Assembly: GCF_011193355.1 (NCBI RefSeq)
Contig: NZ_CP049780.1
Coordinates: 6,476,534-6,540,533 of the forward strand
Source of the DNA: Streptomyces sp. JB150
Lineage (GTDB): Bacteria; Actinomycetota; Actinomycetes; Streptomycetales; Streptomycetaceae
Direction: 5' to 3'
Length of the DNA: 64,000 nucleotides
The notes below the pieces were generated by a model. The model saw only the letters and a program-made list of their open reading frames with translations. It had not been told where the DNA came from and ran no database searches. Shown here in pieces: positions 3,730 to 19,953 of this stretch. Both the position numbers and the translations under genes were made by a program. Positions within the stretch are counted from its first letter, which is position 1. Each line of letters begins with the position of its first letter.

Positions 3730-6700
3730 TCAGATGTCGTCCAGCCCTTCCTCCCGGCGGATCATCCGCCAGGCCGCGCGGCGGGCGCTGCGGTCGAGGT
3801 TGGACTTGAAGTTCCGGTCCGTGCCGAAGTACCGCTGGCCGAGGGTCTCGATCGTGGAGACATGATCCATCATGTTCTCCTCGAACTTCTTGTCGAAGAC
3901 GATGCCGAAGTTCTCCTCGTCATTGACGAGGGCGGCGGCCCGGACCTTCGGGTCCTCCTTGGTGGCGTTGAACGCCGGGAGGACGTCCTCCTCGGTGAAC
4001 TCCGTGCCGAACTTGGCGTTGAACTTCTCGATCAGCTCGGACAGCAGTGACTTTTCGGCGTCCTTCGCGCCGCCGACCCCGTCACCGAACCCCTTGAGCT
4101 CAGCGGCGCCCTCAGGGCTGAGGGACACGTCGTGCTCGCCGGTCTTCTCGACGCGCAGGTGGCTGAGGTCGACCTCGCCTATGTCGACTCCACCGTCCGC
4201 GAGGCGGGGGAGGCGGTTGAGCAGGTAGCGGCCGTACAGGTACAGGCGCTCCAGCTCGGCGTCGTGGTACGGCACGATCTGCGCCAGAAAGCCGTACTTG
4301 CGGACGTAGTCGTTGAGATTGGCCCGGAAGTCCTCGGCCGTCTCGACGTCGTCCTCCTCCTCGCTCTCCAGGAGGGCGGTGAAGCGGGTGACGGCGGGGG
4401 AGAGGAGCCGGTACAGCTCGGCGTGCAGCTTCTCCCACTTGGCCTGGGAGCCGCCGGCCTTCTCCTGCGCCGCGAAGTACGCGGAGACGAACTCGTCCAT
4501 GTCCTGCTCCGAGATGATCGGCGCGGACATGACGCGGCTCTGAGCTGTGTAGAGGAGGTTCGGGTCGGAGGGCAGGGTGTGCGCCTCCTCGAAGTACGGA
4601 CGGAAGGCGTCCTGGATGTCCTCGGCGTCGTTGACGAAGTCTAGGACGGCGAGGTCGGCCTGAGACTTGCGTTCGGCGGTGCGGTTGAGGCGGGAGAGGG
4701 TCTGCACGGCGGCGATGCCGGTCAGCGTCTTGTTGACGTACATCGTCGTCAGGAGCGGCTGGTCGAAGCCGGTCTGGTACTTCTCGGCGACGACCAGGAT
4801 CCGGTACTCCTGCTGCCCCTTGCCGCCGGCCTTTACGGTCTTGTCGTCGGCACGGGTGTAGCCGAACGCCTTCGGCAGTGCGCTCTCCGGTAGGCCGCCG
4901 TTCTCCTTGCTCTCGGTGGTCTCCTCGCCGTCGATGGTGAGGGACCCGGAGAAGGCGACCAGAACGCCGAGGTCCGGGTACCTGGTGTCGTAGTTGCGGT
5001 CGGCGATGTAACTGCGAATGGCGCGGGCCATCTCCACGGCGGACTGGCGGGAAGCCGTGACGACCATGGCCTTGGCGCGCCCGCCGAGCCGGCCACGGGT
5101 GTGGGCGACGAAGTGCTCGACGATCACCTGGGCGTGCTGGGAGACGGTGTGCTCGTGGGTGAGCGCGAACCGGGCGAGGAGGGAGTTCGCCTTGGAGGGG
5201 TCGACCTCCTTTTCGTCCGGGTTCTGGTTCACCAGTTTCCAGTAGGTGTTGTACGTAACGTAGTTGCGCAGCGGGTCGAGGATGAAGCCTTCCTCGATGG
5301 CCTGGCGCATGGAGTAGGTGTGGAAGGGCCGATAGACGGTCTTGCCGTTCTCCACGCCTTCCGTGCCGAAGAGTTCGAGGGTCTTGGCCTTGGGGGTGGC
5401 GGTGAAGGCGAAGTAGGAAAGGTTGGCGGCCCGGGAGCGCTCCACCGCCTTCGCCTTGAGCTTGTCGTCTACAGTGACCGCGGTCGCGCCCTCGTCGTCC
5501 GAGTCGGCGTCCAGGCCGAGGTCGCGCAGGGCGGACTTCACGGCGGTGGCGGCGTCGCCGGACTGGGAAGAGTGCGCCTCGTCCACGATGATCGCGAAAC
5601 GGGTGCCCTTGATCTCGGTGGGGTTGCGCTTGATGTAGTCCAGCAGAGCCGGGAACGAGTGCAGGGTGACCGTGACGATCTTCCCGGTGTCCCGGGAGAG
5701 GGCACGGGCGAGCTGCTCGCTTTTGGCCCCGTGCTTCTCGTCGATCTTCACGACCAAGCCGTCGGTCTGCGAGAAGCTGCCGACGGTCGCCGAGAGCTGA
5801 GCGTCTAGCGCGCGGCGGTCGGTGATGACGATGACCTTGTCGAACACGGGCTCACCCGGCTTGATACGACCGTCGGCGAGGGCGTCGGGTCGCAGGACCG
5901 CGGGATCGTTGCGGGCGTGCAGGTCGCTGAGGCGGTGAGCCAGCCAGCCGATGGTGTTCGACTTGCCGGAGCCGGCGGAGGCCATGACCAGGTAGTTCTG
6001 GCCGGCACCGTGAACGGACGCGTGCGCGGTGAGCTTCCGTACCACGTCCCACTGGTGGAAGCGGGGGAAGATCGTCGTCCTGGTGGTGCTGCCGCCGGGC
6101 GTCTTGTGCTTCTGCTGGTGCACGAAACGCTGGAGCAGGTCGAGCCAGTTGTCCCGCTGCCAGACCTCTTCCCAGAGGTAGGAGGTGGCGTACTTGCCAG
6201 GGGCCGTGGGCGCAGGGTTGCCGGCGCCGCCGGGCTGGCCGGGGCCGTTCGATCCGGTGTTGAAGGGCAGGAACTGGGTGCTCTTGCCGCGCAGCTGCGT
6301 GGTGACGAAGACCAGGTCCGGGTCGACGGCGAAGTTGGCGATCACGCGGCGCGTGAAGATCAGCTCGGTCGGGTCCCGGTCGGTCCGGTACTGCTCCTTG
6401 GCCTGCTCGACACCCTGTCCGGTGAGCGGGTTCTTCAGCTCGGCGGTGGCGACGGGGATGCCGTTGAGGAACAGGGTGAGGTCGAGGCGGTGGCCCCAGT
6501 CGGCCTGCTTGGTGGCGTAGGGGAGCTCCCGGACGACGGTGAGGCGGTTGGCGCGGTAGCCGTTGAGGACCGAGTCGGCGGAAATGAGGTTGGGCTTGAA
6601 GTAGGCAACGCGGAGACGGACCCCGCGGTCCTTCACGCCGTTGCGGAGGACGTGGAGGAGGCCGTCATCGGCGATGGCTCGGTCAAGACGCTGGGCGAAA

Positions 6701-6912
6701 CCGCGCTGGGCCTCGTTGGGGTCACCGCCGTAGACGGTGAGCAGTTCGCTCCACTCGTTGGGCTGGGTCGCACCGATGAAGGTGAAGAGCTCCTTGGTGT
6801 CGAGCCCGAGGTCGGCCTGGTAGTCCTCGGGGTTCGCCTCGCGCCAGCCGCGCTCACAGAGGGCGGCGACGATGGCGGCCCCGAAGGAGGACTCGTCGTG
6901 CACGGGGCTCAT
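3730..6912 (-). CDS. hsdR: Type I restriction enzyme, R subunit (HsdR)
   Basis: The motor and nuclease subunit (1060 residues) of a type I restriction-modification complex, which translocates and cuts unmethylated DNA. The N-terminal PD-(D/E)xK nuclease is visible as D144 with E158-L-K160 (GIPVATAELKNP). The SF2 translocase has Walker A ASAGSGKSN (311-319), DEAH (444-447) and motif III FTATPK (503-508). The C-terminal third is helical and presumably docks on HsdM/HsdS. The ATG overlaps the hsdS stop as ATGA, completing an M-S-R operon. Length and motifs look intact. A Gly/Pro-rich insertion near residues 218-240 is unusual but probably just a linker. Confidence 0.95.
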   Translation of the reverse strand: MSPVHDESSFGAAIVAALCERGWREANPEDYQADLGLDTKELFTFIGATQPNEWSELLTVYGGDPNEAQRGFAQRLDRAIADDGLLHVLRNGVKDRGVRLRVAYFKPNLISADSVLNGYRANRLTVVRELPYATKQADWGHRLDLTLFLNGIPVATAELKNPLTGQGVEQAKEQYRTDRDPTELIFTRRVIANFAVDPDLVFVTTQLRGKSTQFLPFNTGSNGPGQPGGAGNPAPTAPGKYATSYLWEEVWQRDNWLDLLQRFVHQQKHKTPGGSTTRTTIFPRFHQWDVVRKLTAHASVHGAGQNYLVMASAGSGKSNTIGWLAHRLSDLHARNDPAVLRPDALADGRIKPGEPVFDKVIVITDRRALDAQLSATVGSFSQTDGLVVKIDEKHGAKSEQLARALSRDTGKIVTVTLHSFPALLDYIKRNPTEIKGTRFAIIVDEAHSSQSGDAATAVKSALRDLGLDADSDDEGATAVTVDDKLKAKAVERSRAANLSYFAFTATPKAKTLELFGTEGVENGKTVYRPFHTYSMRQAIEEGFILDPLRNYVTYNTYWKLVNQNPDEKEVDPSKANSLLARFALTHEHTVSQHAQVIVEHFVAHTRGRLGGRAKAMVVTASRQSAVEMARAIRSYIADRNYDTRYPDLGVLVAFSGSLTIDGEETTESKENGGLPESALPKAFGYTRADDKTVKAGGKGQQEYRILVVAEKYQTGFDQPLLTTMYVNKTLTGIAAVQTLSRLNRTAERKSQADLAVLDFVNDAEDIQDAFRPYFEEAHTLPSDPNLLYTAQSRVMSAPIISEQDMDEFVSAYFAAQEKAGGSQAKWEKLHAELYRLLSPAVTRFTALLESEEEDDVETAEDFRANLNDYVRKYGFLAQIVPYHDAELERLYLYGRYLLNRLPRLADGGVDIGEVDLSHLRVEKTGEHDVSLSPEGAAELKGFGDGVGGAKDAEKSLLSELIEKFNAKFGTEFTEEDVLPAFNATKEDPKVRAAALVNDEENFGIVFDKKFEENMMDHVSTIETLGQRYFGTDRNFKSNLDRSARRAAWRMIRREEGLDDI

Positions 6913-8138
6913 GCGGAGACTCCTTCGGTGACGTTGCGGCCGCTGGCGGTGGATACGTCGAACTGGCCGGTTACGGCGGCGGTGATGAGGGCTTGGCGGC
7001 GCTCCTTCAAGAGATCGATTTGTTCGGACATGGCACGGCGAAGCATCTCTCGGCGCTCCAAGGCGTCTTCGATCCGCGCAGCGATTACTTCCTGTGCGGG
7101 CAATGACGGAACATCAAGATCAAGGTTAGCGATGTCGCCGAGCCCCAACCCAACCTTCGTTCCTCCATAACTGTTCATCCGTAGCGTCTGTTTTGACCGG
7201 GCGGACTTCAGTGCGTAGGCCAGCCACTTAGGGGAGCAGGTCGTCGGGTTGGGTCGGACGAGGGCGACGTGTTGGCTGACGTTTCCGTCAGCGCCACGTT
7301 CATCCACCAAGGCAACCGACCCAATATCTGCGGTGATGCTGACGAGGATGTCACCTACGTGAGTGCGAGACCTCTCGCGTTCCGGTCCGGGTTCGGCGTC
7401 GACGTAGAGCGAGTCCCGGAGGTCGAGCTGGATACCCCGCCTCGGAATGTTGGTGATCCGCAGGAACAAGCTGCCGCTGTCGGCAACGAGGTCACCCCAG
7501 CCGCGCGGGCCGCTTGTGATCTTCGTGGCCAGATGCTTGAGGCGAGCGGGCTGACCGCTGGCACGATCAAGCATCTCAGTGACGACGCTGTCGTCGGATT
7601 GCTCCAGCAGGGCTGTTTGTCGGGTGCGGTGTGCAAGCAGGGCATCCATTCGGGCAGTTTCGGCGTCGAGGAAATCGGCGATGCGGTGTTGCTCTGCCAG
7701 TGGAGGCAGATTGATTTCCACAGCGCCGAGTTCTTCAGCATTGAGGTGAGATTGAGCTGCCCGAGAGCTTGCCAGCTTCATTTGTTCAACAGCAGCGGAG
7801 CTCAGCAGGGACCAGGCAGCGTACCTAGAGTCGATGGTGAGAGGAGTGACGCGCAGATCATATCCCGGAGCGCTTCCAGCCCACTCCCTGGGTACCCTCG
7901 CTGAATCTCCGGTGTGTGCGCCGCTCCGAACGACAAGAATTTCTCCTTCGGTCAGCAGGGGAGCCCTATTGAGGGGAAGATTTTCGGGCTTAGCCCGAAG
8001 AAGATCCTTTTCGGTGATTTGGCCGCGGGAGATGTTGGTTGCCCGGATAATGGGGATACCGGACTCGGAAAGGGGTGGCGGTTGGCCAAGTCCGTATTGA
8101 ATGCGAGCTACGCGTTTCAGTGGCGTCACAGCAATCAC
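6909..8138 (-). CDS. hsdS: Type I restriction-modification specificity subunit (HsdS)
   Basis: The DNA-recognition subunit, about 409 residues, directing methylation and restriction to a bipartite site. Two target-recognition domains are separated by the conserved helical spacer LPPLAEQHRIADFLDAETAR. The second repeats the pattern with VPSLPAQEVIAARIEDALER and ends in DLLKERRQALITAAVTG, a typical HsdS ending. I place the start at GTG 8138 (VIAVTPLKRVARIQYG) because it overlaps the hsdM stop as GTGA and gives the normal N-terminus; the frame is open further upstream inside hsdM. Its base composition looks lower in GC than hsdR and hsdM, as often seen in exchangeable specificity genes. The recognition sequence cannot be deduced. 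Confidence 0.93.
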   Translation of the reverse strand: MIAVTPLKRVARIQYGLGQPPPLSESGIPIIRATNISRGQITEKDLLRAKPENLPLNRAPLLTEGEILVVRSGAHTGDSARVPREWAGSAPGYDLRVTPLTIDSRYAAWSLLSSAAVEQMKLASSRAAQSHLNAEELGAVEINLPPLAEQHRIADFLDAETARMDALLAHRTRQTALLEQSDDSVVTEMLDRASGQPARLKHLATKITSGPRGWGDLVADSGSLFLRITNIPRRGIQLDLRDSLYVDAEPGPERERSRTHVGDILVSITADIGSVALVDERGADGNVSQHVALVRPNPTTCSPKWLAYALKSARSKQTLRMNSYGGTKVGLGLGDIANLDLDVPSLPAQEVIAARIEDALERREMLRRAMSEQIDLLKERRQALITAAVTGQFDVSTASGRNVTEGVSA

Positions 8139-10126
8139 TCGGTCACCTCCGAGAGCAGGATCTGAATCTCTGCCTCCAGCGCCTTCAACTCCGCGTCGAT
8201 CTCCGCCAGCGGCCGAGGCGGCTCGTACACGTAGAAGTGCCGCGTGAACGGGATCTCGTACCCGATCTTCGTCTTGCTGTGGTCGATCCACGCGTCCGGC
8301 ACGTGCGGGTGGACCTCCCGTGCCAGGTACTCTTCGACGTCCTCGCCCAGCGGCACGTTCTCGTAGTCCCGAAGCTCCGCGTCCGGCTCGGGCTCACCCT
8401 TGACGCGCTGCACCTCGCCCTCCGGGTCCCGCACCCCGATGACATCCCGCAACGCCTTGTTGAACGGCGCCCCCGTCGGCCAGGTCCCGCCGGCCTGCAC
8501 CACCGCGTCCTTCAACGCGAGCCAGGCCTCCTGCTTGGTGGCCCAGCTCGTGTCCATCAGGGACTTAAACGCGTCCGTCAGCGCCGGAGCCTGCGGCAGC
8601 TTCTGGATCGGCTTGGACGCCTCCAGCGCGGCCAGCGTCTCCTCCGTGATCTCGAAGCGCAGCTTCAGCGGGCGTTCCACCGTGATCCGCTGGTAGCCGA
8701 AGTCCTCGTTGCGGAAGACCTTCACCTTGCCGTGCAGCGGGTGCTCCGGATCGTCCGCGACGGCCAGCGCCTCGCCGTACAGCTTGACCACCGTGGCGAT
8801 GTGCTCCTTGCCCAGCTCCTTGCGCTTGTCGCCCAGCGACTTCCGCATCTTCTGCCACTGGTCGCGGGCGTCCAGCAGGACGACCTTGCCCTTGTGGTCC
8901 GGGCTCTTGCGGTTGGTCAGGATCCAGAAGTACGTCGAGATGCCGGTGTTGTAGAACAGCTGGTCCGGCAGGGCGACGATGCCCTCGAGCCAGTCGTTCT
9001 CCAGAATCCAGCGGCGGATCTCCGACTCGCCCGAGCCGGCCGCACCCGTGAAGAGCGGGGAGCCGTTGAAGACGATCGCCAGGCGCGAGCCGCCCTTGCC
9101 GTTGACGTCCACCGGCTTCATCTTGTCGATCATGTGCTGGAGGAACAGCAGCGAGCCGTCGTTGATGCGCGGGAGCCCCGCGCCGAAGCGGCCGGCCTCG
9201 CCCAGCGCCTTGTGCTCGTGCTCGACCGCTTCCTTGACCTTCTTCCACTCCACACCGAACGGCGGGTTGGCCAGCATGTAGTCGAAGGTCTTGCGGGCGT
9301 GGCCGTCGTCGGAGAAGGAGTTGCCGAAGGCGATGTTCTCCGGGTCCTGGCCCTTGATCATCAGGTCGGACCGACAGATCGCCCATGATTCGGGGTTGAG
9401 CTCCTGCCCGTACACCTCGACCGTGGCGTCCGGGTTCAGGTCCTTGATGAGGTCGTCCATCGCGGAGAGCATGCCGCCCGTGCCGCAGGCCGGGTCGAGC
9501 ACCGTGCGCACCGCGCCCGGCAACTGGAGCGCGTCACCGTCCGGGGCGACCAGCAGCCGCACCATCAGCTGGATGACCTCACGCGGGGTGAAGTGCTCAC
9601 CGGCCGTCTCGTTGGACTGCTCGGAGAAGCGGCGGATCAGCTCCTCGAAGATGTAGCCCATGTTGTGGTTGGGCACGACCTCGGGACGCAGGTCCAGGTC
9701 GGTGAACCTGCCGATGACCTGGTAGAGCAGCCCCGCGCCGTCCAGCCGCTTGATCTGCTGGGCGAACTCGAAGCGGTCCAGGACGCCGCGGGCGTTGTCG
9801 GAGAACGCCCCGACGTACACCGTGAGGTTCTTCGCCGCGTTCTGCGGGTCCGCCGCGATCTTCTTCAGGGTCAGGTTGGACCGGTTGTAGAAGGCGTGGC
9901 CCGAGGCCCGGCGCAGGAAGCGGTCCGGGTCGATGTCGCCGTCCTTGTACTGCTCCGCGATCTCGGCGACCTTCTCGCGGGTCGGTTCCAGCACGCACTC
10001 CAGTCGCCGCAGCACCGTGAACGGCAGGATGACCTTGCCGTAGTCGGACTGCTTGTAGTCCCCCCGCAGGAGGTCGGCGACGGACCACGCGTGGTTCGCC
10101 AACTCCGTGTGCTTACTGCTGTTCAA
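8135..10126 (-). CDS. hsdM: Type I restriction-modification methyltransferase subunit (HsdM)
   Basis: The adenine-N6 methyltransferase subunit, about 663 residues. It carries the HsdM N-terminal helical domain, SAM-binding motif I DPACGTGG and catalytic motif IV NPPFG. It methylates host DNA at the HsdS-defined site and forms the core of the restriction complex. I chose TTG 10126 because it gives NSSKHTELANHAWSVADLLRG, which I recall as the usual N-terminus, and GGGGA lies 5 nt upstream. GTG 10165 would add 13 residues. It is the first gene of the operon, with its promoter presumably in the 106 bp after the neighbouring methyltransferase gene. Confidence 0.93.
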   Translation of the reverse strand: MNSSKHTELANHAWSVADLLRGDYKQSDYGKVILPFTVLRRLECVLEPTREKVAEIAEQYKDGDIDPDRFLRRASGHAFYNRSNLTLKKIAADPQNAAKNLTVYVGAFSDNARGVLDRFEFAQQIKRLDGAGLLYQVIGRFTDLDLRPEVVPNHNMGYIFEELIRRFSEQSNETAGEHFTPREVIQLMVRLLVAPDGDALQLPGAVRTVLDPACGTGGMLSAMDDLIKDLNPDATVEVYGQELNPESWAICRSDLMIKGQDPENIAFGNSFSDDGHARKTFDYMLANPPFGVEWKKVKEAVEHEHKALGEAGRFGAGLPRINDGSLLFLQHMIDKMKPVDVNGKGGSRLAIVFNGSPLFTGAAGSGESEIRRWILENDWLEGIVALPDQLFYNTGISTYFWILTNRKSPDHKGKVVLLDARDQWQKMRKSLGDKRKELGKEHIATVVKLYGEALAVADDPEHPLHGKVKVFRNEDFGYQRITVERPLKLRFEITEETLAALEASKPIQKLPQAPALTDAFKSLMDTSWATKQEAWLALKDAVVQAGGTWPTGAPFNKALRDVIGVRDPEGEVQRVKGEPEPDAELRDYENVPLGEDVEEYLAREVHPHVPDAWIDHSKTKIGYEIPFTRHFYVYEPPRPLAEIDAELKALEAEIQILLSEVTE

Positions 10127-10232
10127 CTGGATCCCCAGGTTCCTTCCGAAATGTCCCAACCCCACCGTCCGAGGAGATCGGTCTGCCTAGGACGGTCCGA
10201 CAAGTGTGGTCTATGTGTGAGAAGCGGTGTGC

Positions 10233-12440
10233 CTAATGGGGTGCATCGCCACCCCGGCCACCCGCCTCCGCCGCGTCCCGCGACGGCAGCAGCTGCCCGC
10301 CCGTGAGCCCGCCCGCCAGCAGCCGTGCCGTCTCCTCCGCCAGCAGGGTCGCCCGCCGTGCCTCCGCCCGGAGCTCGTGCACGTGCCGGAACGCTTCCCC
10401 GTACCGCCGCTGCTCCTCCAGCGGCAGCAGGGGCACGCGCAGCCGGCCCGGGCTGACCGTCAGCACCGTGCTGCCCGTCGACGCGCCCGCGATGTTCTCC
10501 TCCGCCCCCAGGAACCCGGCGAGGAACCAGGCGTCCAGGCGGGCCGGGTCCGGCCGGAACAGGTGGATGTGGGGGCCGAGCAGCGCCCCGGCGTCCTCGT
10601 CGCCCGCGACCCGGGCCATCGGGCCGTCCGCGCTCGCGACCGCCCGTACAAGGACGTCCCCGACGGCGATCACGGGTGCCGTGTCGTCGGACAGCCCCGT
10701 CCGGTCGCCGGTGGGCCCTGACCCGGTCGCGATGTCCGAGCTGGTGAGCACCGCCCGAGTCTCGGGTCTCCCGCCCCCGTCGAACCCACCGCCTGCGGCC
10801 TTTGTGCGGGGGCGCACGCTGTCCGGTTGTGTCCGCAGCAGGGTGAGCGCCCCGCCACGCGCGAGGTCGGACGCGGTCGCCGTCCGCCACTCGCGGGCCG
10901 AGGCACCCGCGGCGCTCCAGCCCTCATGGCCCGCCGCCCGCGCGAGGGACCGCGCGGCCTCGGCGAGGTTCCGGCGCGCGGCGTCGACTTCGGCCGACAG
11001 TTCCGCCGGGTCGACCTCGGCCCGTGACGCCCGGACGAGCCGTGCCGGGGTCAGGTCCACCACGTCGTCCAGCAGATCCACCACGCCGACCGCGTGCGCG
11101 ACACCGGGTTCGCCCTCGAAGGTGTCCGGGCTCTTCCTGAACGCCCGCCACGCGTCCAGGGCGCGCGCCGTGATTCCCTCCCAGTCGACGGAGGCGGAGC
11201 GGCTTTCGCCCCGCGTGCGCGCTGTCAGCGCCGTTCCCCCGCGTCCGGCCGCCGTCGCCGTGCCGGTCGCCGCGTCCGCCGCCGTGTCCACGAACAGCAC
11301 CGACTTGCGCTCGGGGCCGCCCGGCTCGGGCCGTTGCAGCACCCACACCTGAAGCGCCACGTGCAGCGGCACCGCCGCACCGACCGGCAGCGCGATCACC
11401 GCGCGCAGCGCGCCGCTGCGTACGAGTTCCGCCCGTACCCGGCGCCCCGACGCGCGCCCGGCTGTGGCCGGCGGCAGCAGCAGCACCGCGTAACCGCCGG
11501 GGACGAGGTGGGCGAGCGCGTGCTGCACCCAGGCCAGCTCCGACTCCGCGCGGGCCGGCACGCCGTACGCCCAGCGCGGGTCGTACGCGAGCTCGTCGTG
11601 GCCCCAGTCCCGCACGCCGTACGGCGGGTTGCACAGCACCGCGTCAGCGAGCAGACCAGGGAAGGCATCGGCGCGGAGACTGTCGGCGGCGCGTACGGTG
11701 ACCGCGGCCTCCGGGGCCGTCAAGCGCAGGCTCACGGCGCTGCGCCGGGCCTGTACGGGGAGCGTGTCCTGGCCGTACAGCTCACGAGCCCCCCGGCGGG
11801 CGGCGGTCGCCAGCAGGGTGCCGCTGCCGCAGGCCGGGTCCAGGACACGAGCCGGGGCGCCGGGGATCAGGCGGGCGAGCAGGTCCGCCAGCGGTGCGGG
11901 GGTGCGGTAGGCGCCAGACGCGGCGCTGTCCTCCAGCTCCCGCTCCGCGAGCACGCCCAGCGCGGCCTGGCCGCCCTCCTCGCGTACACACGCGTACAGC
12001 GCGCGGAGCACCGCCGCGTCGCCCGCCTCGAAACGAGCGGTCTCCGCGGTCGGCACGGCGTCGGCCGCGGACGTCGCGTCCTGTAGCGCGCGGGCGGCGA
12101 GTGCCGCGTCCGGCAGCCGTGTGATGTCGCTCAGCTCTTGCGCTGAGCGGCCCGCCGACGCCAGAACCAGGAGCGGCAGGCTCTCGGGCACGCCGCCCTC
12201 CTGCGCGTGCAGGCGGAGAACCGTGCGGAGCTCCTCCGAGGGACTCGCCGCCGACGGGTGCCCGCGTGAGGCCAGCCAGGCCCGCACGGCCTCCAGGTCG
12301 TACAGGGGACTGCTCTCCGTGCCTCCGGACGGCTCGGGAAAGTCTTCGTGCCGACGGCGCCAGTTGCTGACCGTGGCGCGCGTGACTCCCGCGATGCGGG
12401 AGATCTCGGCGGCAGTCACCTGGGCGGATGGTTGGGGCAT
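10233..12440 (-). CDS. N6-adenine DNA methyltransferase with N-terminal HTH and HsdS-like C-terminus
   Basis: A 735-residue multidomain protein. Residues about 7-60 form a MerR/XRE-like HTH (TAAEISRIAGVTRATVSNWRRR). A helical region follows, then a type I-like methyltransferase with SAM motif DPACGSGT (201-208) and catalytic NPPY (271-274). The last 150 or so residues resemble half an HsdS: DVLVRAVAS, then LFRPDPARLDAWFLAGFL, STGSTVLTV and RVPLLPLEEQRRYGEAFR. It may therefore recognise and methylate DNA without a separate S subunit. It has no nuclease or helicase motif. ATG 12440 is preferred; the Shine-Dalgarno signal is weak (GAGAGG, 14 nt away). The gene is divergent from a DndB-like gene. 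Its HTH could also make it an autoregulator. Confidence 0.85.
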   Translation of the reverse strand: MPQPSAQVTAAEISRIAGVTRATVSNWRRRHEDFPEPSGGTESSPLYDLEAVRAWLASRGHPSAASPSEELRTVLRLHAQEGGVPESLPLLVLASAGRSAQELSDITRLPDAALAARALQDATSAADAVPTAETARFEAGDAAVLRALYACVREEGGQAALGVLAERELEDSAASGAYRTPAPLADLLARLIPGAPARVLDPACGSGTLLATAARRGARELYGQDTLPVQARRSAVSLRLTAPEAAVTVRAADSLRADAFPGLLADAVLCNPPYGVRDWGHDELAYDPRWAYGVPARAESELAWVQHALAHLVPGGYAVLLLPPATAGRASGRRVRAELVRSGALRAVIALPVGAAVPLHVALQVWVLQRPEPGGPERKSVLFVDTAADAATGTATAAGRGGTALTARTRGESRSASVDWEGITARALDAWRAFRKSPDTFEGEPGVAHAVGVVDLLDDVVDLTPARLVRASRAEVDPAELSAEVDAARRNLAEAARSLARAAGHEGWSAAGASAREWRTATASDLARGGALTLLRTQPDSVRPRTKAAGGGFDGGGRPETRAVLTSSDIATGSGPTGDRTGLSDDTAPVIAVGDVLVRAVASADGPMARVAGDEDAGALLGPHIHLFRPDPARLDAWFLAGFLGAEENIAGASTGSTVLTVSPGRLRVPLLPLEEQRRYGEAFRHVHELRAEARRATLLAEETARLLAGGLTGGQLLPSRDAAEAGGRGGDAPH

Positions 12441-12477
12441 GGCGCGTGTCCGGGCCTCTCGTATGGGGACAGTCAAC

Positions 12478-12505
12478 AACTTACAACAGGCGTCAAGTCT
12501 GTCAA
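12478..12505 (-). promoter_or_regulatory. Promoter for the HTH-methyltransferase gene
   Basis: On the minus strand, TTGACA (12505-12500) is followed after 16 nt by TAAGTT (12483-12478), predicting a start about 30 nt before the ATG at 12440. The -35 lies within the palindrome at 12499-12517. Confidence 0.5.
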
Positions 12506-12517
12506 TGCGTTTGACAG
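12499..12517. promoter_or_regulatory. Palindromic operator shared by divergent promoters
   Basis: CTGTCAATGCGTTTGACAG is a perfect 7-bp inverted repeat with a 5-nt centre. Each arm contains a TTGACA -35 hexamer, one per strand. A protein bound here would cover both -35 boxes, coupling control of the methyltransferase and the DndB-like gene. The HTH domain of the methyltransferase is the obvious candidate ligand, but that is inference. Confidence 0.6.
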
Positions 12518-12540
12518 TGCTTTCAGTGCAGTGCTTACCT
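12511..12540 (+). promoter_or_regulatory. Promoter for the DndB-like gene
   Basis: A consensus TTGACA (12511-12516) precedes CTTACC/TTACCT (12534-12540) at 17-18 nt. The predicted leader to the ATG at 12609 is about 60 nt, ending in a good ribosome-binding site, GGGGGAAG. Confidence 0.5.
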
Positions 12541-12608
12541 GGAGACGCTTCCAGCTAGGGAGTGCGTGCCGTGCGGGCACGTCATCGAGACAGTTCGGGG
12601 GAAGTCCC

Positions 12609-13835
12609 ATGAGCCTGACCATGCCGACCGCCGTGATCGAGGGAACCCAGCTCACGGTCGCGCCGTTCCGTTCCGACGCCGTCGTGGGGACCATGTCCGT
12701 TCCGACGCTCGTCCAGCTCGTGCCCTCGCCCCGTGCCGAGGAGGACCCGCGCAAGCTCAAGGCGGCCTCGGGCCTGGTGCGACGTCACGCGGAGATGAGG
12801 GCCACTGTGCAGCGCACGCTGAAGTCCTCGCAGAAGGGCAAGAACGTCCGCCCCTACGCCGAGTACATCGCTGCCGGTCTCAAGGGCGAGCTCGGTGCTG
12901 CCTGGTCCACGCCGCCGGTCACCCTGTGGCACGCCGGACCGCTCGCCGCCATCAGTGACGAACTCGTCCCCGGCAGCGGCCTGCGGACCCTCACGATCGC
13001 GCCGGGAACGATGGTCATCGCCATCGACGGCGAGACCCAGACCACCGCCTGGCACGACCTCTACGACGACCCCGAGGCGTACGGTCTGACGTACCCGGAA
13101 CTCAGCCAGGTGCGCATCCCTTTCGAGCTGTACATCGACCTTGCTCCGGCGGACGCGCGGCAGATCTTCTACGACCGCAACGTGCAGGGTGTGGCTGTCG
13201 CGAAGAACCTCGCGATGTCCATGGACCAGCGCGACTTCGGCACCCGGCTCGCGCATCTGGTCGCCGACTCGGTCAGGGTGGACGTGGACGGGCAGCGGGT
13301 TCCGTTCGCGCGACTCGTCAATGTCAGCAAGCGACAGGTGTCCGCGAGCGACCGTGAGGTCGTCACCCTCTCCGCGCTGCGGGCCCTCGTCGTCACTGCG
13401 CTCTACGGACGGAACGGTCTGCAGAGGTCCGCCGAGTCCGTACACGAGGACGAGCTGCCGGCCGGGTACCGGACCGAGCAGGTCGAGGCCGCGGTCGTAC
13501 CGGTCCTCGGGGAGTTGATCACCCGCCACGCCCGGGACTTCATCGAGCGCACCGCCATCACCGCGCCGGCCGTCCTCGCCGGCATCGGCATCGCCGTCCA
13601 CCACGCCATGCCGTGGTCCGACCCGGCGTCCGCCTTCCGTACGGACGACCTGGTCCGCCTCCTCGACGGCATCCGCTGGGAGCGGGAGGCGAAGTACTGG
13701 GACGGGGTCGCGGCCAAGACCGGCACCTCCGGCCGCCTCAACTTCAGCGGCGGGGTGAAGGACTCCGGCGGCCGGGTCGCCGACGCGATCCTCTACCCCG
13801 CCACCGAGGCGGGCCGGAGGATCCGCGGCCTCTGA
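12609..13835 (+). CDS. DndB-like / DGQHR-domain protein
   Basis: A 408-residue protein resembling DndB, the regulator of DNA phosphorothioation, and other DGQHR-domain proteins. The fold is suggested by PGTMVIAIDGETQTTAWHDL, which occupies the place of the DGQHR motif (D140-G141-E142-T143-Q144), and by RQIFYDRNVQGVAVAKNLA with MDQRD (residues 184-209), matching the DndB segment with Asn-x-x-x-V and DHRD-like motifs. The family motif is degenerate: Gln-His-Arg is Glu-Thr-Gln. No dndA/C/D/E genes are present. The gene is divergent from the HTH-methyltransferase, and their promoters share a palindrome. The ATG has GGGGGAAG 5 nt upstream; the open frame continues upstream without support. A role in modification or regulation of modification is plausible but unproven. 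Confidence 0.7.
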   Translation: MSLTMPTAVIEGTQLTVAPFRSDAVVGTMSVPTLVQLVPSPRAEEDPRKLKAASGLVRRHAEMRATVQRTLKSSQKGKNVRPYAEYIAAGLKGELGAAWSTPPVTLWHAGPLAAISDELVPGSGLRTLTIAPGTMVIAIDGETQTTAWHDLYDDPEAYGLTYPELSQVRIPFELYIDLAPADARQIFYDRNVQGVAVAKNLAMSMDQRDFGTRLAHLVADSVRVDVDGQRVPFARLVNVSKRQVSASDREVVTLSALRALVVTALYGRNGLQRSAESVHEDELPAGYRTEQVEAAVVPVLGELITRHARDFIERTAITAPAVLAGIGIAVHHAMPWSDPASAFRTDDLVRLLDGIRWEREAKYWDGVAAKTGTSGRLNFSGGVKDSGGRVADAILYPATEAGRRIRGL

Positions 13836-13958: not shown

Positions 13959-14528
13959 ATGAGCTTCCAGCAGCCCTCCCCGCCGCCCGAGTACGGACCG
14001 CAGGGCCCCCTCGGCCTCGACGCGCCCGTAAGCCCCGCAAAGCCCGATTGGGGTCCCAGACGGTGGCTGAAGTACGGGGCGGTCGCCCTTGTTTCTCTGT
14101 TCGTCGGAGTCGGTATCGGCAGCAGCAGTGGTTCGGCGGAGACCGAGAAGAAGAGCGCCGATGGCAACGCTGGGCCTCGCCCCACTGTCACCGTCACCGA
14201 GACTGCCGAGGCCGTAGCCCCCGAACCCGCGCCCACCGTCACTGAGACGGTCATCGCCAAGCCCAAGCAGACGAAGGCCCCCGGTCCGGCGACCCGATTC
14301 TCCGGCGAGGGCGAATACTCGGTCGGGGAGGACATCAAGGCCGGCACCTACAAGACGGTGGGTCCGGAGGACGAGTGGGGCTGCTACTGGGAGCGGGCCA
14401 AGGACGCCAGTGGCGAGTTCGGGGCGATCATCGCGAACAACAACCTCCAAGGGCCGGGCCGGGTGACCCTCAACGACGGCGAGTACTTCAAGACCAACCG
14501 GTGCCAGGAGTGGCAGCGGGTCGGCTGA
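13959..14528 (+). CDS. Single-pass membrane protein with extracytoplasmic domain
   Basis: A 189-residue protein of unknown function. A Pro-rich cytosolic N-terminus is followed by one hydrophobic segment (about residues 38-58, YGAVALVSLFVGVGIG), a Thr/Val/Pro-rich linker (PTVTVTETAEAV) and a C-terminal domain (about 112-189) with GEYSVGEDIKAGTYKT, GCYWERAKDASG, IIANNN and a final Cys. That last domain recurs in secreted and lipoprotein-like actinobacterial proteins. The two Cys residues could pair outside the cell. It stands alone between the DndB-like gene and the Hsp70 operon, on the same strand as both. Confidence 0.8.
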   Translation: MSFQQPSPPPEYGPQGPLGLDAPVSPAKPDWGPRRWLKYGAVALVSLFVGVGIGSSSGSAETEKKSADGNAGPRPTVTVTETAEAVAPEPAPTVTETVIAKPKQTKAPGPATRFSGEGEYSVGEDIKAGTYKTVGPEDEWGCYWERAKDASGEFGAIIANNNLQGPGRVTLNDGEYFKTNRCQEWQRVG

Positions 14529-14703
14529 CCCGCCCAGGGAGACGTCCAGGAAGCCGCGTATCCGGCTGAGCGCGGTATCCCCTGGCGGCGTGTGACATGC
14601 AATTACGAAGGCACCTGTTGTCTGCCTTACCATCAGGTCGATCACCGTGACCGCGTCGATCGGGGAGGGCCGGGCGGGCACGGGGGTGGGGAGGGATGAG
14701 CCG

Positions 14704-16476
14704 ATGACCAGCGAGTCGGCTGCCTCAGCGGATCTCGAAGAGCTGAGGCGCGCGGAGTTGGCACGACGGGAACAGCGTCGACGCGCCCGCGAGAGTGGGG
14801 CCGTCGCGCCCCTGCACGCACGGCGCCGTGCGCGTGCGGAAAACCTGTCGGTCGAGCCGGTTGATGCCCCGTCTGCGGTGAATCCAGCTCCTTCGCTGGT
14901 GCGGCTGCCGACGCGCGTCACTCATGTACTGGAACGAGTACTCGAGGAACTCGGTGAGGAACCAGCGTGGCTCGAAGGCATGCGCACTCGTGCCTCTGCG
15001 TCCGGCGACCCGCTGGGGACCATGGCGCTCGAGACGGTCGAACTGCTGCGCCGTGCGGAACCGCTGACCGCTCTCGGTCATCTTCTCGATCTGGCGAGCG
15101 GCGGCCTTTGCGTCCTCAGTGAGGAGGACCGTTCACGCGCTGAGGCACTGCGCTCCGGGCGTCTGCCCGCCCCCCGGACCGAACCGACCTCCCTCGACGC
15201 CTGGCAGCTCCATCTCGAGGCCACTGAAGCACAGAGGCATGGCCTGCTTGCCGCGGTGGCGTGGCAACGACTCGCCGAGCGCCTGCCGCTACCGGTCGTC
15301 GACGACCTGGTCGACCAGGGGGCCCTCCGCCGAGAGGTGCTCGCGCAGTTGGCGCCCGGGGTGGGGGAACGGACCGGCTATCTGACGGCACGCCTGGACC
15401 CGGGACGGCTCAGTGACGCCGACGTGGAAGCGTTGGAGTGGCACGACGAAAAACGTCGCCGTGCCTTGGCGGCGGGCGGCACGGTCGATCCGGTCGATGG
15501 CCGCCACGACGAGTGGAGTCTGCGTTCCGCTCTTCTCGCCGGAGACGCCTCCGTTGTGGACGTTGCGGCCTCGCACGCCGGAGACCTTCCCGTGGACCTC
15601 GCAGATCTCTTGCTGTCCCTCCGGCGCATCCGGCAGGGTGGACCTGTGGACGGCCGTCTCGGCCGGGACCGATCGCTGTTCGGTCTCCTGGAGGACTGCG
15701 TTCCTGACGGCCGCCTGATCTCCGGCAGTACGCCCTTCCACTACTGGGCCGGCACCCGTCGTCTCTACCGATTGCTGGACGACATCCATTGGGCCATGGC
15801 ATGTGAACCGGATCAAACGGAGACCGTGGTGCGGGCCGCCCTGCAACAGGCCGCTGTGCTCCGGAACCCGGAGTCCCGGGGCGCTGCCGGCAACGCGGAT
15901 CGAGAAGCGCGGGCTGTGCAGGCCTACTTGATGTTCCTCTACGCACGCCCCGGTGAGCGGGACCGACTCGACCAAGGCGTCGGCCTCCTGGAAGACGTGC
16001 TGAAGCGAGGGGGCAAGCAGCGCGGAGGAGTGGACGGAAGGCAACGGCACCGGCTGCGCTCCCTCAGCGAGCTGCTGCAGTCGCTGAGGCTCAAGTCAAA
16101 GCCCAGTGAGGTCCTCAACCCCTATCTGGCCCTGTGCGTCGAGCACGGTTCCACGGAGTGGGTGCAGGGATGGCGCGATCTGCGGCGACAGGTACCAGCG
16201 GAGCGACTCGAGTACATCAACGGCGCGAAGGATCGCATTCGACGCATCGAGACGGCGCGACGGCTCGGTGAGGCCGGGGAGACTCTGTACGACATTCCGT
16301 TGAACGAGCGGTTCCTCTGGGTGCCCGACGACCGCAGTCCCCTGTTGCAGCCGGACCCGCAGCCGATGGCACGCCGTACGAAGCCCAGTACCGAGCAGGA
16401 AAAGTCATGGACCGCCGCCGAGGCGGCCAAGGAGATCATCGGCCGCTGTGCCGGAAGACTGAGGAACGAGCACTGA
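14704..16476 (+). CDS. Unknown protein, first gene of the Hsp70-NYN operon
   Basis: A protein of about 590 residues that I do not recognise. The N-terminus is charged and probably coiled-coil (LEELRRAELARREQRRRARE), followed by a Pro/Ala linker and a long, mostly helical body with hydrophobic heptads, e.g. LTALGHLLDLASGGLCVL, the Trp-containing STPFHYWAGTRRLYRLLDDI, and AYLMFLYARPGERDRL. The pattern looks like an alpha-solenoid or helical scaffold. No enzymatic motif is visible. I chose ATG 14704, preceded by GGGAGGG at 9 nt, over GTG 14647, which has no ribosome-binding site. Its TGA overlaps the next ATG (TGATG), so it is coupled to the coiled-coil protein and the Hsp70-like ATPase and probably works with them. 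Confidence 0.8.
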   Translation: MTSESAASADLEELRRAELARREQRRRARESGAVAPLHARRRARAENLSVEPVDAPSAVNPAPSLVRLPTRVTHVLERVLEELGEEPAWLEGMRTRASASGDPLGTMALETVELLRRAEPLTALGHLLDLASGGLCVLSEEDRSRAEALRSGRLPAPRTEPTSLDAWQLHLEATEAQRHGLLAAVAWQRLAERLPLPVVDDLVDQGALRREVLAQLAPGVGERTGYLTARLDPGRLSDADVEALEWHDEKRRRALAAGGTVDPVDGRHDEWSLRSALLAGDASVVDVAASHAGDLPVDLADLLLSLRRIRQGGPVDGRLGRDRSLFGLLEDCVPDGRLISGSTPFHYWAGTRRLYRLLDDIHWAMACEPDQTETVVRAALQQAAVLRNPESRGAAGNADREARAVQAYLMFLYARPGERDRLDQGVGLLEDVLKRGGKQRGGVDGRQRHRLRSLSELLQSLRLKSKPSEVLNPYLALCVEHGSTEWVQGWRDLRRQVPAERLEYINGAKDRIRRIETARRLGEAGETLYDIPLNERFLWVPDDRSPLLQPDPQPMARRTKPSTEQEKSWTAAEAAKEIIGRCAGRLRNEH

Positions 16477-17288
16477 TGCCTTCGAACCAGAACCCCCGCA
16501 AAAAACCGGCGTCCGAGCCTCGTCGGATCCCGGAATTCGAAGGAGTGCGTGGCAAGCCTGGCAACAAGAGCAAGAGGCGTTCCCGGTCCCGGACGGACAG
16601 CAGTGCGACGACCCAGCGACGGCAACGCAACAACCCTGATGCATCACGGCTGGAACGGCCGAGTGACCAGCGAGTCGACGAGGCCGTGGCGGACTCGTCC
16701 GACCCGGCAGCCGAGGCGGGCCCGCTGGTCGATCCGCGCTCGGACCCCGAGGTGATGTTCCGCATCCTCAGCGACAAGATCGCGGCGAAGGTGGACCGCG
16801 CGGCGATGAAGGCCGGGGCCAGCGCGGCTCAAGAAGTCGGTCGACGGCTCACCGCTGAACTGGACGCAGCCATCGCGGGCGCGCAGTCGACCGCGGGAAA
16901 GATGGGCACGCTGGTGCAGCAGGCCGTCCAGGCAGCGGTGGACGAGGCACTGCGCACGGCGGTGCTCAACGCGACGAGGGTTCACGAGGAGCACCTGGCA
17001 CAGTTGGCCCTGATCGACCGCACGGCGCAGACGGCAGGAGACATCTCCTCGGTTCGGCTGCGGGTGGAACAAGAGATGCGTCGCTCCGGACTGACGCGTG
17101 TCACTGCCCCCGACCCAGGTGCCTTCAACCTCATCAACCCGGCTGAGCATGTGGGCAGCACCGCCTTCGAAGTGCTCGCCCCGGCCTATGTCGACAGCCG
17201 GACCGGCCGGGTCATCCAGCGTGGGGAGATGAGACGGCTACCGTCCGAACTTGCTTTGTCCGACCCGGAAGGGGGTGCCGACCGATGA
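16476..17288 (+). CDS. Basic/coiled-coil protein, second gene of the Hsp70-NYN operon
   Basis: A 270-residue protein of unknown function. The first 60 residues are strongly basic and disordered (PRKKPASEPRR, NKSKRRSRSR), suggesting nucleic-acid or ribosome contact. Residues about 105-215 form an Ala-rich amphipathic coiled coil (AAMKAGASAAQEVGRRLTAE, VQQAVQAAVDEALRTAVLNA). A short ordered tail contains FEVLAPAYVDSRTGRVI. Its start overlaps the previous stop by one base and its stop overlaps the Hsp70 start as ATGA. Tight coupling on both sides implies a complex of fixed stoichiometry. It could act as an adaptor or substrate for the Hsp70-like protein. Confidence 0.8.
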   Translation: MPSNQNPRKKPASEPRRIPEFEGVRGKPGNKSKRRSRSRTDSSATTQRRQRNNPDASRLERPSDQRVDEAVADSSDPAAEAGPLVDPRSDPEVMFRILSDKIAAKVDRAAMKAGASAAQEVGRRLTAELDAAIAGAQSTAGKMGTLVQQAVQAAVDEALRTAVLNATRVHEEHLAQLALIDRTAQTAGDISSVRLRVEQEMRRSGLTRVTAPDPGAFNLINPAEHVGSTAFEVLAPAYVDSRTGRVIQRGEMRRLPSELALSDPEGGADR

Positions 17289-19339
17289 CGTACGGCATCG
17301 ACTTCGGTACGAGCAACTCCGTCGTCGCCCGGTGGACGGGCAGCGCCACCGAGGTAGTCCGGGTGGACAGCGCCGCCCTGCCCGCCGAGTGGAACAGGCC
17401 CGGCTTCGACGAACTCTTCCCGTCCGTCGTTTCACTGCGGGACATCCAGCGAACGCTGGTCTTCGGCTGGTCGGCCAAGTGTGAGACGGCAGAGCCGCAG
17501 GACGCGGTCAAGCGCATGCTGGCCTCCCGGCCGCGCGCCATGGAGGAGGGCGGCCTCACCCCGGCGGGCACGGTGCCGGAGGAACACGAGGTCTGGCTCG
17601 GCGATGAGCCGTTCCGCAGCACCGCGGTGGCCGCCGCGCTCTTCGACCGGATGCGGGCCGGCGTGCGCCGGAACCTGCGGGACATGGAAGAGGCGGTCGT
17701 CACGGTGCCGGCGAACGCCACCGGAGCCGCGCGCTACCGTACCCGGGCCGCGGCACGGCTCGCCGGAATCAAGGTGAAGGCACTGATCAACGAGCCGACG
17801 GCAGCGGCGATCAGTTATGCCCACGACTTTCCCGGGGAGGGCCGGTTCCTCGTTTTCGACTGGGGCGGCGGCACAATTGACGTCACCGTCCTCGAGCACT
17901 ACGACGGCATCTTCGACGAGATGGCCTCGCGCGGGATCACCGCCCTCGGCGGGCTCGAGTTCGACGAGGAACTGGTGAAGTTGGTGCTCACCAAACTCGG
18001 CACCCACCCCGAGCGCCTGACGCGGCAGGAGGCTCGCCGCTGGCGGCGTCATGTCGAGCTGACCAAGATCGCATTGTCGCAGCCGGACACGGATCAGGTG
18101 CTCTTCGAGCCGCTCGGGGGCCATGCTCCTGTGGTCATCCACCGCGAGGAGTTCGAGGAGGCGGTGCAGCCGCTGGTGCGCCGCGCGCTCATCCCTTTGG
18201 AGGAGTGTCTGCAGGACGTGGGGCTCACCGCCGACGACCTCGACGCCGTCTTGATGATCGGTGGCACCTCGCAGATTCCGTTGGTACGCAGGGAGGTAGA
18301 GCGGGCGCTGGGGCGTGAGGTGGTGGACGCCCGCCTGTGCAAGCCGATGACCGCTGTCGCTCGTGGAGCGGCCATCACGGCCGCCGAGATCGACGGCCTG
18401 GTTCCGGACACCACCATTTCGGTTGCCACCAGCCATGACCTCGGTCTGTCCTTCGAGGCGGGCGGTCAGCGCGGGTTCGCCACGTTGATTCCGCGCTACT
18501 CGACGCTGCCGGCGCGCGGCACTCGCAGTGCCATGCCCGCGGTGCGCGGGGCTTCCAAGGTGGTCCTGGAGATCGTCGAGGGCGACGGGAAACGAGCCGC
18601 GGACGACGAGCGGACGTTTCCGCTCGCCCGGTTGGAACTTCCGGTGCCCCAGCCGAACGCTGACCCGTCGAGCAACGTGTTCGACGTCGACTACCACTAC
18701 GACCGCAGCGGCATCCTCAAGGTCCATGCCAAGGCCAGGCACAGCGGCACCGTCATCCTCGACGAGGAACTCGACTGCTTCGGTCCCGACGGTACGCCGA
18801 TCGCCCACGGACTCGACAGGGAGCTGGAACGGCTGCTCCGGCGCATCGACGAACCAGCCGTTCCCGTCGCTGTCCCCCAGCCGTCTTACGAGGAGGTGGT
18901 GTCATTCGAGACACAGGCCGCGGAGGAACCGGCGGGCGCCGACTCTCCCGCCTTGGTCGTCGACGGTCGCGGCATCATGACGGCAGGGCGCACCGCTGCC
19001 TCGCCGCGCGCCCCCAGCATGCGACTGCTGGGTTCGGCCCTGACTGCGATCCGACGTCGTTTCCCGGACCACCGTGTCGTCACCGTGATCGGTACCGACC
19101 TGGCTGACGCCGTCGAATACGACGAGCGGCACCTGGTGGACCGGGCGATCGACGAGGGACTTATCGTGACCGTTCCCTCCGCCTCGCCCCAGGCTGTCCT
19201 GAACGTGGCGCAGCAGCTCGACGCTGTGGTCGTGTCCATGGACAACATGACGCGGTTCCGTACGCCACATCCCTGGGTCGGGGAGAAAGGGCGGTTCGTG
19301 AAGCTGGCCCGAGTGGAGCGTGATTGGGTCTTCGTCTAA
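17285..19339 (+). CDS. Hsp70-family ATPase fused to a NYN/PIN-like ribonuclease domain
   Basis: A 684-residue fusion. Residues 1-375 form the Hsp70 actin-fold ATPase: phosphate-1 GIDFGTSNS (4-12), connect-1 NEPTAAAISYA (169-179), phosphate-2 FDWGGGTIDV (191-200), adenosine motif LMIGGTSQIPLVR (323-335). Residues about 376-500 resemble a beta-rich substrate-binding domain without the usual lid. Residues about 555-684 look like a Regnase/Zc3h12a-type NYN domain: VVDGRGI (D560), RHLVDRAIDEGLIVTVPSA, then LDAVVVSMDNMTRFR (D646, D653). The paired Asp found just before the last helix in active Regnase-type enzymes is Ser-Pro here (632-633), so catalysis is uncertain. It is the last gene of the overlapping operon. 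DnaJ and GrpE partners are absent. Confidence 0.85.
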   Translation: MTYGIDFGTSNSVVARWTGSATEVVRVDSAALPAEWNRPGFDELFPSVVSLRDIQRTLVFGWSAKCETAEPQDAVKRMLASRPRAMEEGGLTPAGTVPEEHEVWLGDEPFRSTAVAAALFDRMRAGVRRNLRDMEEAVVTVPANATGAARYRTRAAARLAGIKVKALINEPTAAAISYAHDFPGEGRFLVFDWGGGTIDVTVLEHYDGIFDEMASRGITALGGLEFDEELVKLVLTKLGTHPERLTRQEARRWRRHVELTKIALSQPDTDQVLFEPLGGHAPVVIHREEFEEAVQPLVRRALIPLEECLQDVGLTADDLDAVLMIGGTSQIPLVRREVERALGREVVDARLCKPMTAVARGAAITAAEIDGLVPDTTISVATSHDLGLSFEAGGQRGFATLIPRYSTLPARGTRSAMPAVRGASKVVLEIVEGDGKRAADDERTFPLARLELPVPQPNADPSSNVFDVDYHYDRSGILKVHAKARHSGTVILDEELDCFGPDGTPIAHGLDRELERLLRRIDEPAVPVAVPQPSYEEVVSFETQAAEEPAGADSPALVVDGRGIMTAGRTAASPRAPSMRLLGSALTAIRRRFPDHRVVTVIGTDLADAVEYDERHLVDRAIDEGLIVTVPSASPQAVLNVAQQLDAVVVSMDNMTRFRTPHPWVGEKGRFVKLARVERDWVFV

Positions 19340-19346
19340 GCGACGG

Positions 19347-19377
19347 TGCGGGGTCGGCGTACCCGGGCCGCCCCGCA
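19347..19377. terminator. Terminator hairpin after the Hsp70-NYN operon
   Basis: TGCGGGG (19347-19353) pairs with CCCCGCA (19371-19377), with further CGGC/GCCG pairing inside. It follows the operon stop by 7 nt. Confidence 0.6.
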
Positions 19378-19398
19378 TCGATCAGCACCTTTGTTGCA

Positions 19399-19404
19399 TA
19401 TGAT
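19399..19404 (+). promoter_or_regulatory. -10 element TATGAT implying a leaderless transcript
   Basis: TATGAT ends 7 nt before the GTG at 19411, so transcription would begin at or beside the start codon. No Shine-Dalgarno sequence precedes that GTG. It overlaps a small inverted repeat, GCAT-ATG-ATGC. No convincing -35 is seen. Confidence 0.45.
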
Positions 19405-19410
19405 GCGCAA

Positions 19411-19953
19411 GTGCAACCCCGCGACTACACCATCAGGCCGGCAACCCCAGCAGACCTGGACGCCGCCCGGGCGGTGATGCTCGACACCGTGTACCGCGAC
19501 TTCGGCACGGGGTACGTGCCCCGCTGGCACGGCGACATCATCGATCCGGCCGCCGCCTACCTGGCCCCTGAGCGCCACACCCTGCTGGTGGCGGTCGAAG
19601 AGGACAGCGGGGACGTCGTCGCCACCGCCGCGCTCGACGCCCGCGGCCCCGCGCATCCGCCGAACCCGAGGCAGGTCGCCGAGTGGTTCCCGTCGGGGAC
19701 GACCGCGCAGGTGCGGCGGGTGTACGTCCGGCCGGAGCACCGCAGGCGCGGGCTCGCGCGGCGACTGGTCGCGGAGTTGGTGGCGTTCGCGGAGGCGGAC
19801 GGCGGGTATCGGGCCGTCTATTTGCACACGGATCCGTCGGTGCCGGGTGCGGAGGGCTTCTGGCGGTCGCTCGCCAAGGTCGTGTGGGACGAGCGCGAGG
19901 ACGCCGGGGGCGGGCAGGGGATCGTCCACTTCGAGATACCGATGGGGCGGTAA
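19411..19953 (+). CDS. GNAT-family N-acetyltransferase
   Basis: A 180-residue GCN5-related acetyltransferase transferring acetyl from acetyl-CoA to an unknown amine. Motif A is clear: AQVRRVYVRPEHRRRGLARRLVAEL, with the pyrophosphate-binding RRRGLA. The N-terminus IRPATPADLDAARAVML is the usual beta1-alpha1. The start is placed at GTG 19411, giving VQPRDYTIRPATPAD; the frame is open upstream, but a TATGAT -10 just before it supports a leaderless mRNA. It sits alone after the Hsp70 operon terminator, and its substrate is not predictable. Confidence 0.85.
   Translation: MQPRDYTIRPATPADLDAARAVMLDTVYRDFGTGYVPRWHGDIIDPAAAYLAPERHTLLVAVEEDSGDVVATAALDARGPAHPPNPRQVAEWFPSGTTAQVRRVYVRPEHRRRGLARRLVAELVAFAEADGGYRAVYLHTDPSVPGAEGFWRSLAKVVWDEREDAGGGQGIVHFEIPMGR

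Follow-up and report, generated by a model that had tools for sequence, protein, structure and literature searches.

Gene content of the locus

The window, a stretch of 64,000 nucleotides from Streptomyces sp. JB150, contains three consecutive forward-strand genes, here termed c2, c1 and c0, the last of which encodes an Hsp70 protein ending in a degenerate NYN domain (Table 1). Both junctions within this triad overlap (TGATG and ATGA), which suggests translational coupling. Between positions 3730 and 13835, type I restriction-modification (RM) genes adjoin an N6 methyltransferase gene and a DndB/DGQHR-like gene. The open reading frame that follows the triad appears, as judged by eye, to encode an N-acetyltransferase.

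Table 1. Features of the c2-c1-c0 locus, in coordinates of the window
Feature	Position	Strand	Basis or remark
HsdR type I restriction subunit	3730..6912	-	Pfam, PADLOC, NCBIfam
HsdS specificity subunit	6909..8291	-	Pfam, PADLOC
HsdM type I methyltransferase	8135..10165	-	Pfam, PADLOC
N6-adenine DNA methyltransferase	10233..12479	-	PADLOC PDLC03037, 2.8e-270
DndB/DGQHR-like protein	12348..13835	+	Pfam DndB, 1.7e-9
189-aa protein	13959..14528	+	No Pfam match at E<=0.01; neighbour common to several triad loci
c2, all-helical protein of 609 aa (590 aa if the start is 14704)	14647..16476	+	AlphaFold, profile comparison
c1, GrpE-like	16476..17288	+	Frame annotated from 16407; start probably at 16476, within the TGATG overlap with c2
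c0, Hsp70 with degenerate Zc3h12a-type NYN domain	17285..19339	+	Third triad gene; ATGA overlap with c1
c0, Hsp70 nucleotide-binding domain (NBD), residues ~4-373	17294..18403	+	Border approximate
c0, Hsp70 substrate-binding beta domain (SBD-beta), residues ~374-500	18404..18784	+	Borders approximate
c0, variable linker, residues ~501-554	18785..18946	+	Conservation, pLDDT
c0, pseudo-NYN domain, residues 555-684	18947..19336	+	Pfam, AlphaFold, PDB matches
ORF downstream of c0	19324..19953	+	Adjoins the triad in several genomes; listed start overlaps c0

An Hsp70 fused to a Zc3h12a-type NYN domain

The N-terminal part of c0 belongs to the Hsp70 family, with the NBD motifs and SBD-beta both present and a Pfam HSP70 match (2.3e-63) spanning residues 4-488. 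Seven ATP-site residues are conserved in all 47 aligned rows, and Lys70 is present by motif in 45 of them. The genome also encodes two proteins of the DnaK type, to which c0 is about 28% identical. No helical lid follows SBD-beta in c0: the Pfam match stops at residue 488, and residues 555-684 fold as a NYN domain. Conservation in the intervening linker is low from residue 520 on, and pLDDT is low at residues 1-14 of the model.

A Pfam scan of the whole 684-aa protein returned HSP70, MreB-like and Zc3h12a models only, the last of these matching the C-terminal 130 residues above its cut-off. The AlphaFold model of this region reached a pLDDT of 90, and all 23 of its PDB matches at E<=0.001 were Regnase, ZC3H12, KHNYN or PRORP nucleases. 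The fusion proposed in the original prediction, including a NYN/PIN fold for residues 555-684, was thus confirmed by profile comparison and, at the level of a predicted structure, as a Zc3h12a/Regnase-type fold. PADLOC gave no significant match for c0, c1 or c2 of the window, and one sister Hsp70 yielded a single weak match (1.2e-5).

Active-site acids and selection on the NYN domain

The metal-binding acids of this fold are D141, D225, D226 and D244 in Regnase numbering, by which the first Asp (D1), the GD Asp and the SND Asp would match catalytic acids. Four acid columns, defined on sister proteins and not on Regnase itself, were compared across 204 aligned rows. The window NYN keeps D1 within VVDG and has an Asp at the fourth (SND) site, its beta-3 Asp is lost, and a deletion has removed the whole GD segment together with the GD Asp. 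The window-type clade was assessed in a set of 54 rows (45 database proteins; loci and database proteins overlap in part), from which rows P0136 and P0138 were left out because of broken C-termini. D1 occurs in 54/54 rows, the beta-3 Asp in 0/54 and the GD Asp, replaced by a gap, in 0/54, and the fourth site carries D in 18 rows, E in 30, G in 4, Q in 1 and N in 1.

All four acids are retained in the 148 other rows (148/148), a few of which are not whole Hsp70s (e.g., P0120 and P0159); the GD and SND positions had been used to sort the rows, so the independent observations here come down to D1 and the beta-3 Asp. A more distant group, with ~36-49% identity over the Hsp70 protein, carries the motifs DGSN, VVVDAT, GDALV and SND. 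For relatives with complete acid sites, an RNase function is plausible from their residues. In P0159, a close relative of this NYN domain is joined to a protein kinase, so sensor proteins may exchange the domain among themselves.

Despite the lost acids, the NYN part evolves under purifying selection, with dN/dS of 0.04-0.24 in seven pairs, ratios that are only approximate given a dS greater than 1 in six of the seven; in five of the seven pairs, NYN dN/dS lies above that of the NBD. The combination of lost acids and continued selection makes the window NYN look like a conserved pseudo-nuclease, which is its simplest reading. The original prediction had called the window protein an RNase-like effector, and this part was not supported. 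A reading in which the Hsp70 gates an active RNase would fit the Pfam and fold matches, the invariant D1, the Asp at the fourth site of the window protein and the relatives with a complete site. Nevertheless, it is made very unlikely by the absence of the beta-3 and GD acids in 54/54 rows, by a fourth site that varies among D, E, G, N and Q, and by a sister clade in the tree (see below) that has no NYN domain at all.

Some residual or altered catalysis is conceivable, given the retained D1 and the acid (D or E) that 48/54 rows have at the fourth site. A rebuilt site could be formed by Asp residues near the lost beta-3 Asp (in TD and D.VE), D1 and the fourth-site D/E, binding metal in a shifted position and yielding a changed nuclease. 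D51 and D54 of A1 are nearly invariant and D6 is invariant (14 rows), and the frequency of acids at the fourth site and the purifying selection on the domain are compatible with this idea; however, the deletion takes out the entire GD segment, and such a site is improbable.

GrpE-like and J-like partner proteins

Profile comparison suggests a resemblance of c1 to GrpE over the beta domain, with a probability of 59.6% over 54 columns that none of 284 usable column shuffles reached. The Pfam GrpE model PF01025 does not match c1, and the two PF01025 matches of the genome are located elsewhere. The second partner, c2, is helical almost throughout in its AlphaFold model (pLDDT 87) and combines a TPR-like middle region with a C-terminal J-domain-like segment, whose helices occupy residues 473-476, 486-496 and 499-520 of the 590-aa form. 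The J-like profile matched DnaJ with 54% probability over 28 columns, and 0/300 column shuffles scored as high; a first, small set of J-like profiles had scored 1.9% and whole c2 0.3%. Normal J-domains need an HPD motif, and this motif occurs in 0/47 rows of c2. No match to c2 was found in Pfam, PADLOC or NCBIfam.

Both resemblances could have arisen by chance between unrelated helical proteins. In keeping with this, neither c1 nor c2 matches a Pfam family at a useful score, the profile probabilities are only 41-62% and lower in the smallest sets, and the 50 structural matches listed for the c2 model include helical-repeat proteins and no J-domain entry. Against it stand the shuffles, which never reached the GrpE or J scores, the reversed templates, which scored only 0.1-1.3%, and the position of both genes beside the Hsp70 gene at every full-length locus (see below), so that chance is a minority possibility, though an appreciable one. 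A GrpE function for c1 and a J function for c2 are proposed with moderate confidence.

Conservation and distribution of the triad

The order and strand of c2, c1 and c0 are identical at every examined locus where the Hsp70-NYN gene is full-length (41/41). Of these loci, 18 (L155-L157, L159-L173) lie outside the profile-building set. Some loci are near copies (e.g., L059, L166 and L173), and the number of independent cases is accordingly below 41. The expected recurrence of the two upstream genes with the fusion was thereby borne out. At L055, L061 and L169, c2 is split over two frames. Truncated or frame-broken Hsp70 genes, for which assembly error is possible, were found at L005 and L174 (one genome), L006, L009, L010 and L158, and no match to c1 or c2 was detected at any of these loci.

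The distribution of the proteins is patchy. Matches to the C-terminal profile were obtained in 29/392 genomes of the genus and 27/293 of the order, counts that cover the genome of the window itself as well as broken copies and some proteins other than Hsp70s. A reciprocal search with one sister c2 matched 14/199 genus genomes, among them the window's own; a match to the C-terminal profile is present in 12 of these as well, G179 has a triad without NYN, and G015 matched at E = 9.7e-4. Beyond Streptomyces, NYN-bearing triads were seen at L062, which belongs to a different family of the order, and at L155 and L156, from two genomes of the class. A phylum-wide search gave matches in 27/396 genomes, the window's own excluded, and among 26 loci parsed from the wider searches, the Hsp70 part was matched by that of L151 alone, which is a Streptomyces copy. 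Phage and plasmid records gave no match to the queries tried.

Many of the other parsed loci encode NYN proteins of a different build. In other actinobacterial lineages (L121-L147), these relatives of the Hsp70-borne NYN have tails rich in Lys and Ala and a stretch that looks S1-like by eye. In two genomes (L069 and L070), a conserved six-gene cluster contains a NYN protein (~400-aa frame) and a paralog.

Association with restriction-type genes

Restriction, methyltransferase or defence-type helicase genes lie near the triad at 25/41 loci, compared with 1/20 control stretches, a difference that is an upper estimate because the query genes were taken from triad and Druantia loci and the loci are related. 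The neighbours counted were genes of the types found in the window, a DruE-like helicase (with an additional kinase domain in L055), a DrmMI/IIG-like methyltransferase and an SF1 helicase. Other triad loci also have neighbours of the HsdM-, methyltransferase- and DndB-like kinds, among them L057 and L168, where the NYN site is complete. At L059, L060, L166, L170 and L173, a methyltransferase of ~1344-1747 aa (DrmMI/IIG-like in L059) lies directly upstream of c2 and is possibly a fourth operon gene there.

The frequent position of the triad beside DNA-restriction genes suggests an undescribed, chaperone-run defence module. Alternatively, it may serve stress responses or RNA quality control in Streptomyces and have come to lie in such islands by chance. 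The 16/41 loci without any tested restriction gene would fit this alternative, as would NYN relatives elsewhere in the phylum, which are separate proteins resembling ordinary RNA enzymes, some of them S1-like by eye. It is nonetheless unlikely given the patchy presence (any match in 29/392 genus genomes), the broken or truncated copies noted above (assembly error being possible), the four kinds of restriction-type neighbours and the placement of a sister triad in Druantia-like operons. The genomic setting thus agrees with a defence role of the triad, which we infer, and proves none.

A sister triad without NYN and the history of the domain

In G179, the gene order is druF4, druL4, druE4, c2, c1 and an Hsp70 gene (560 aa, without NYN), followed by a DruM2-like methyltransferase gene on the opposite strand. 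A search with DruL4 yielded matches in 10/323 genus genomes. At six of these ten loci (L185, L195-L199), which resemble Druantia type IV operons, the NYN-less triad directly follows druE, and the other four have no triad within the 18 kb read.

Two proteins of the DnaK type from the window's genome served to root an NBD tree, in which the NYN-less Hsp70s linked to Druantia form the sister group of the window clade (99/97). The next branch is L062, whose NYN is complete (98/99), and the remaining proteins with a complete NYN fall outside; exact placements are unsure owing to the long branches of L156, L062 and L155. Judged from this topology, a complete NYN was most simply the ancestral state, with catalysis lost or the domain discarded towards the window lineage.

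Proposed function and significance

Taken together, the preferred interpretation, to which we assign a probability of about 0.6, is that the triad forms a dedicated Hsp70 machine tied to systems of DNA restriction, with an ancestral RNase output and, in the window, a NYN domain that serves for binding only. In this proposal, c0 would be the ATPase of a three-gene chaperone machine and carry its NYN in place of the lid, c2 would recognise a putative client and pass it to c0, and c1 would reset the nucleotide of c0. The machine would act in concert with the DNA-restriction or methyltransferase system next to it. Most relatives seen keep what is presumably the ancestral form, whose complete NYN site could allow client binding or release to gate RNA cleavage. 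In the window lineage, the NYN has lost acids and its fold would persist, most likely for binding RNA or protein; the output would then come from the chaperone directly or from the restriction proteins nearby. Protein sensing by the Hsp70 that gates an effector, also part of the original prediction, is retained in this scheme as something we infer.

A broader formulation, which we rate at slightly below an even chance, is that the Hsp70/GrpE-like/J-like triad constitutes an undescribed defence module that plugs into several DNA-restriction systems, namely type I RM with a DndB-like gene, DruE-like helicases, DrmMI/IIG-like methyltransferases and SF1 helicases. Its Hsp70 would ancestrally have carried its own RNase, which was disarmed in the window lineage and discarded in the sister lineage as the triad joined a Druantia variant, so that the chaperone would couple sensing to attack on both RNA and DNA and could also run with a pseudo-nuclease.

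To our knowledge, Hsp70s have rarely been seen as immune components with an effector of their own. If the proposal is correct, the triad would make it possible to test how the ATP-driven cycle of a chaperone controls the moment at which a nuclease or restriction system fires, and would add new components to Druantia-like systems. The natural series of complete, degenerate and absent NYN domains would then allow the outputs of chaperone and RNase to be told apart. Of more interest than the RNase reading of the window protein is the triad, with its links to restriction systems.

Comparison with known systems

In the literature searched, mostly titles and abstract openings, no description of an Hsp70-NYN fusion or of the c2-c1-c0 triad was recognised. 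At least two sister proteins carry the UniRef label "RNase NYN domain-containing", and the domain is thus annotated without being explained. With Zc3h12a/Regnase-type NYN (PIN-like) RNases, KHNYN and PRORP, c0 shares the fold; it differs in the acids lost throughout the window clade and in its fusion to an Hsp70. The triad resembles DnaK-DnaJ-GrpE in combining an Hsp70 that keeps its ATP-site residues with neighbours that have J-like and GrpE-like profiles, whereas the missing helical lid, the J-like segment without HPD and the additional NYN domain set it apart.

Among conflict systems, the actinobacterial, GAP1-N2 GTPase-centred systems are described as including HSP70, GrpE and a DnaJ- or TPR-bearing partner (eLife 2020, PMC7159879; consulted in part), and the window triad is likewise actinobacterial, with an HSP70 and GrpE-like and J/TPR-like partners. 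Unlike those systems, it showed no GTPase, tubulin or FNIII domain in the nine window ORFs scanned with Pfam, a scan that ended before the right flank and in which GAP1 may lack a model. The terms "NYN" and "Zc3h12a" have 0 occurrences in the main text of PMC7159879. Elsewhere in the window's own genome (L201, G000:C1:840000-858000), a second Hsp70 has GrpE and DnaJ-domain matches nearby and is perhaps a chaperone set of the GAP1-N2 type. The part of PMC8195603 consulted holds nothing closer than GAP1-N2 systems and CoCoNuTs. As an analogy only, bNACHT25 needs DnaJ for phage sensing, according to the part of PMC12169576 consulted.

CoCoNuT type IV restriction systems, in the part of their description consulted (eLife 2024, PMC11090510), comprise Hsp70-like NBD/SBD proteins, target RNA with RNases and occur near type I RM, BREX or Druantia; inactivated nuclease folds kept for binding have also been proposed for them, and the string "NYN" has 0 occurrences there. 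Their Hsp70 part, either fused to McrB/McrC or encoded separately, is thought to be a poor ATP hydrolyser at best, while the c0 Hsp70 is fused to a NYN, keeps the tested ATP-site residues and, by Pfam, has no McrB/McrC-type fusion, an absence with which CoCoNuT types that have a separate Hsp70 gene remain compatible. Finally, Druantia type IV (PADLOC DruE4, DruF4 and DruL4) differs from the window locus, where the triad adjoins type I RM and DndB-like genes in a genome (G000) without a DruL4 match, but the NYN-less sister triad follows druE at 6/10 Streptomyces DruL4 loci.
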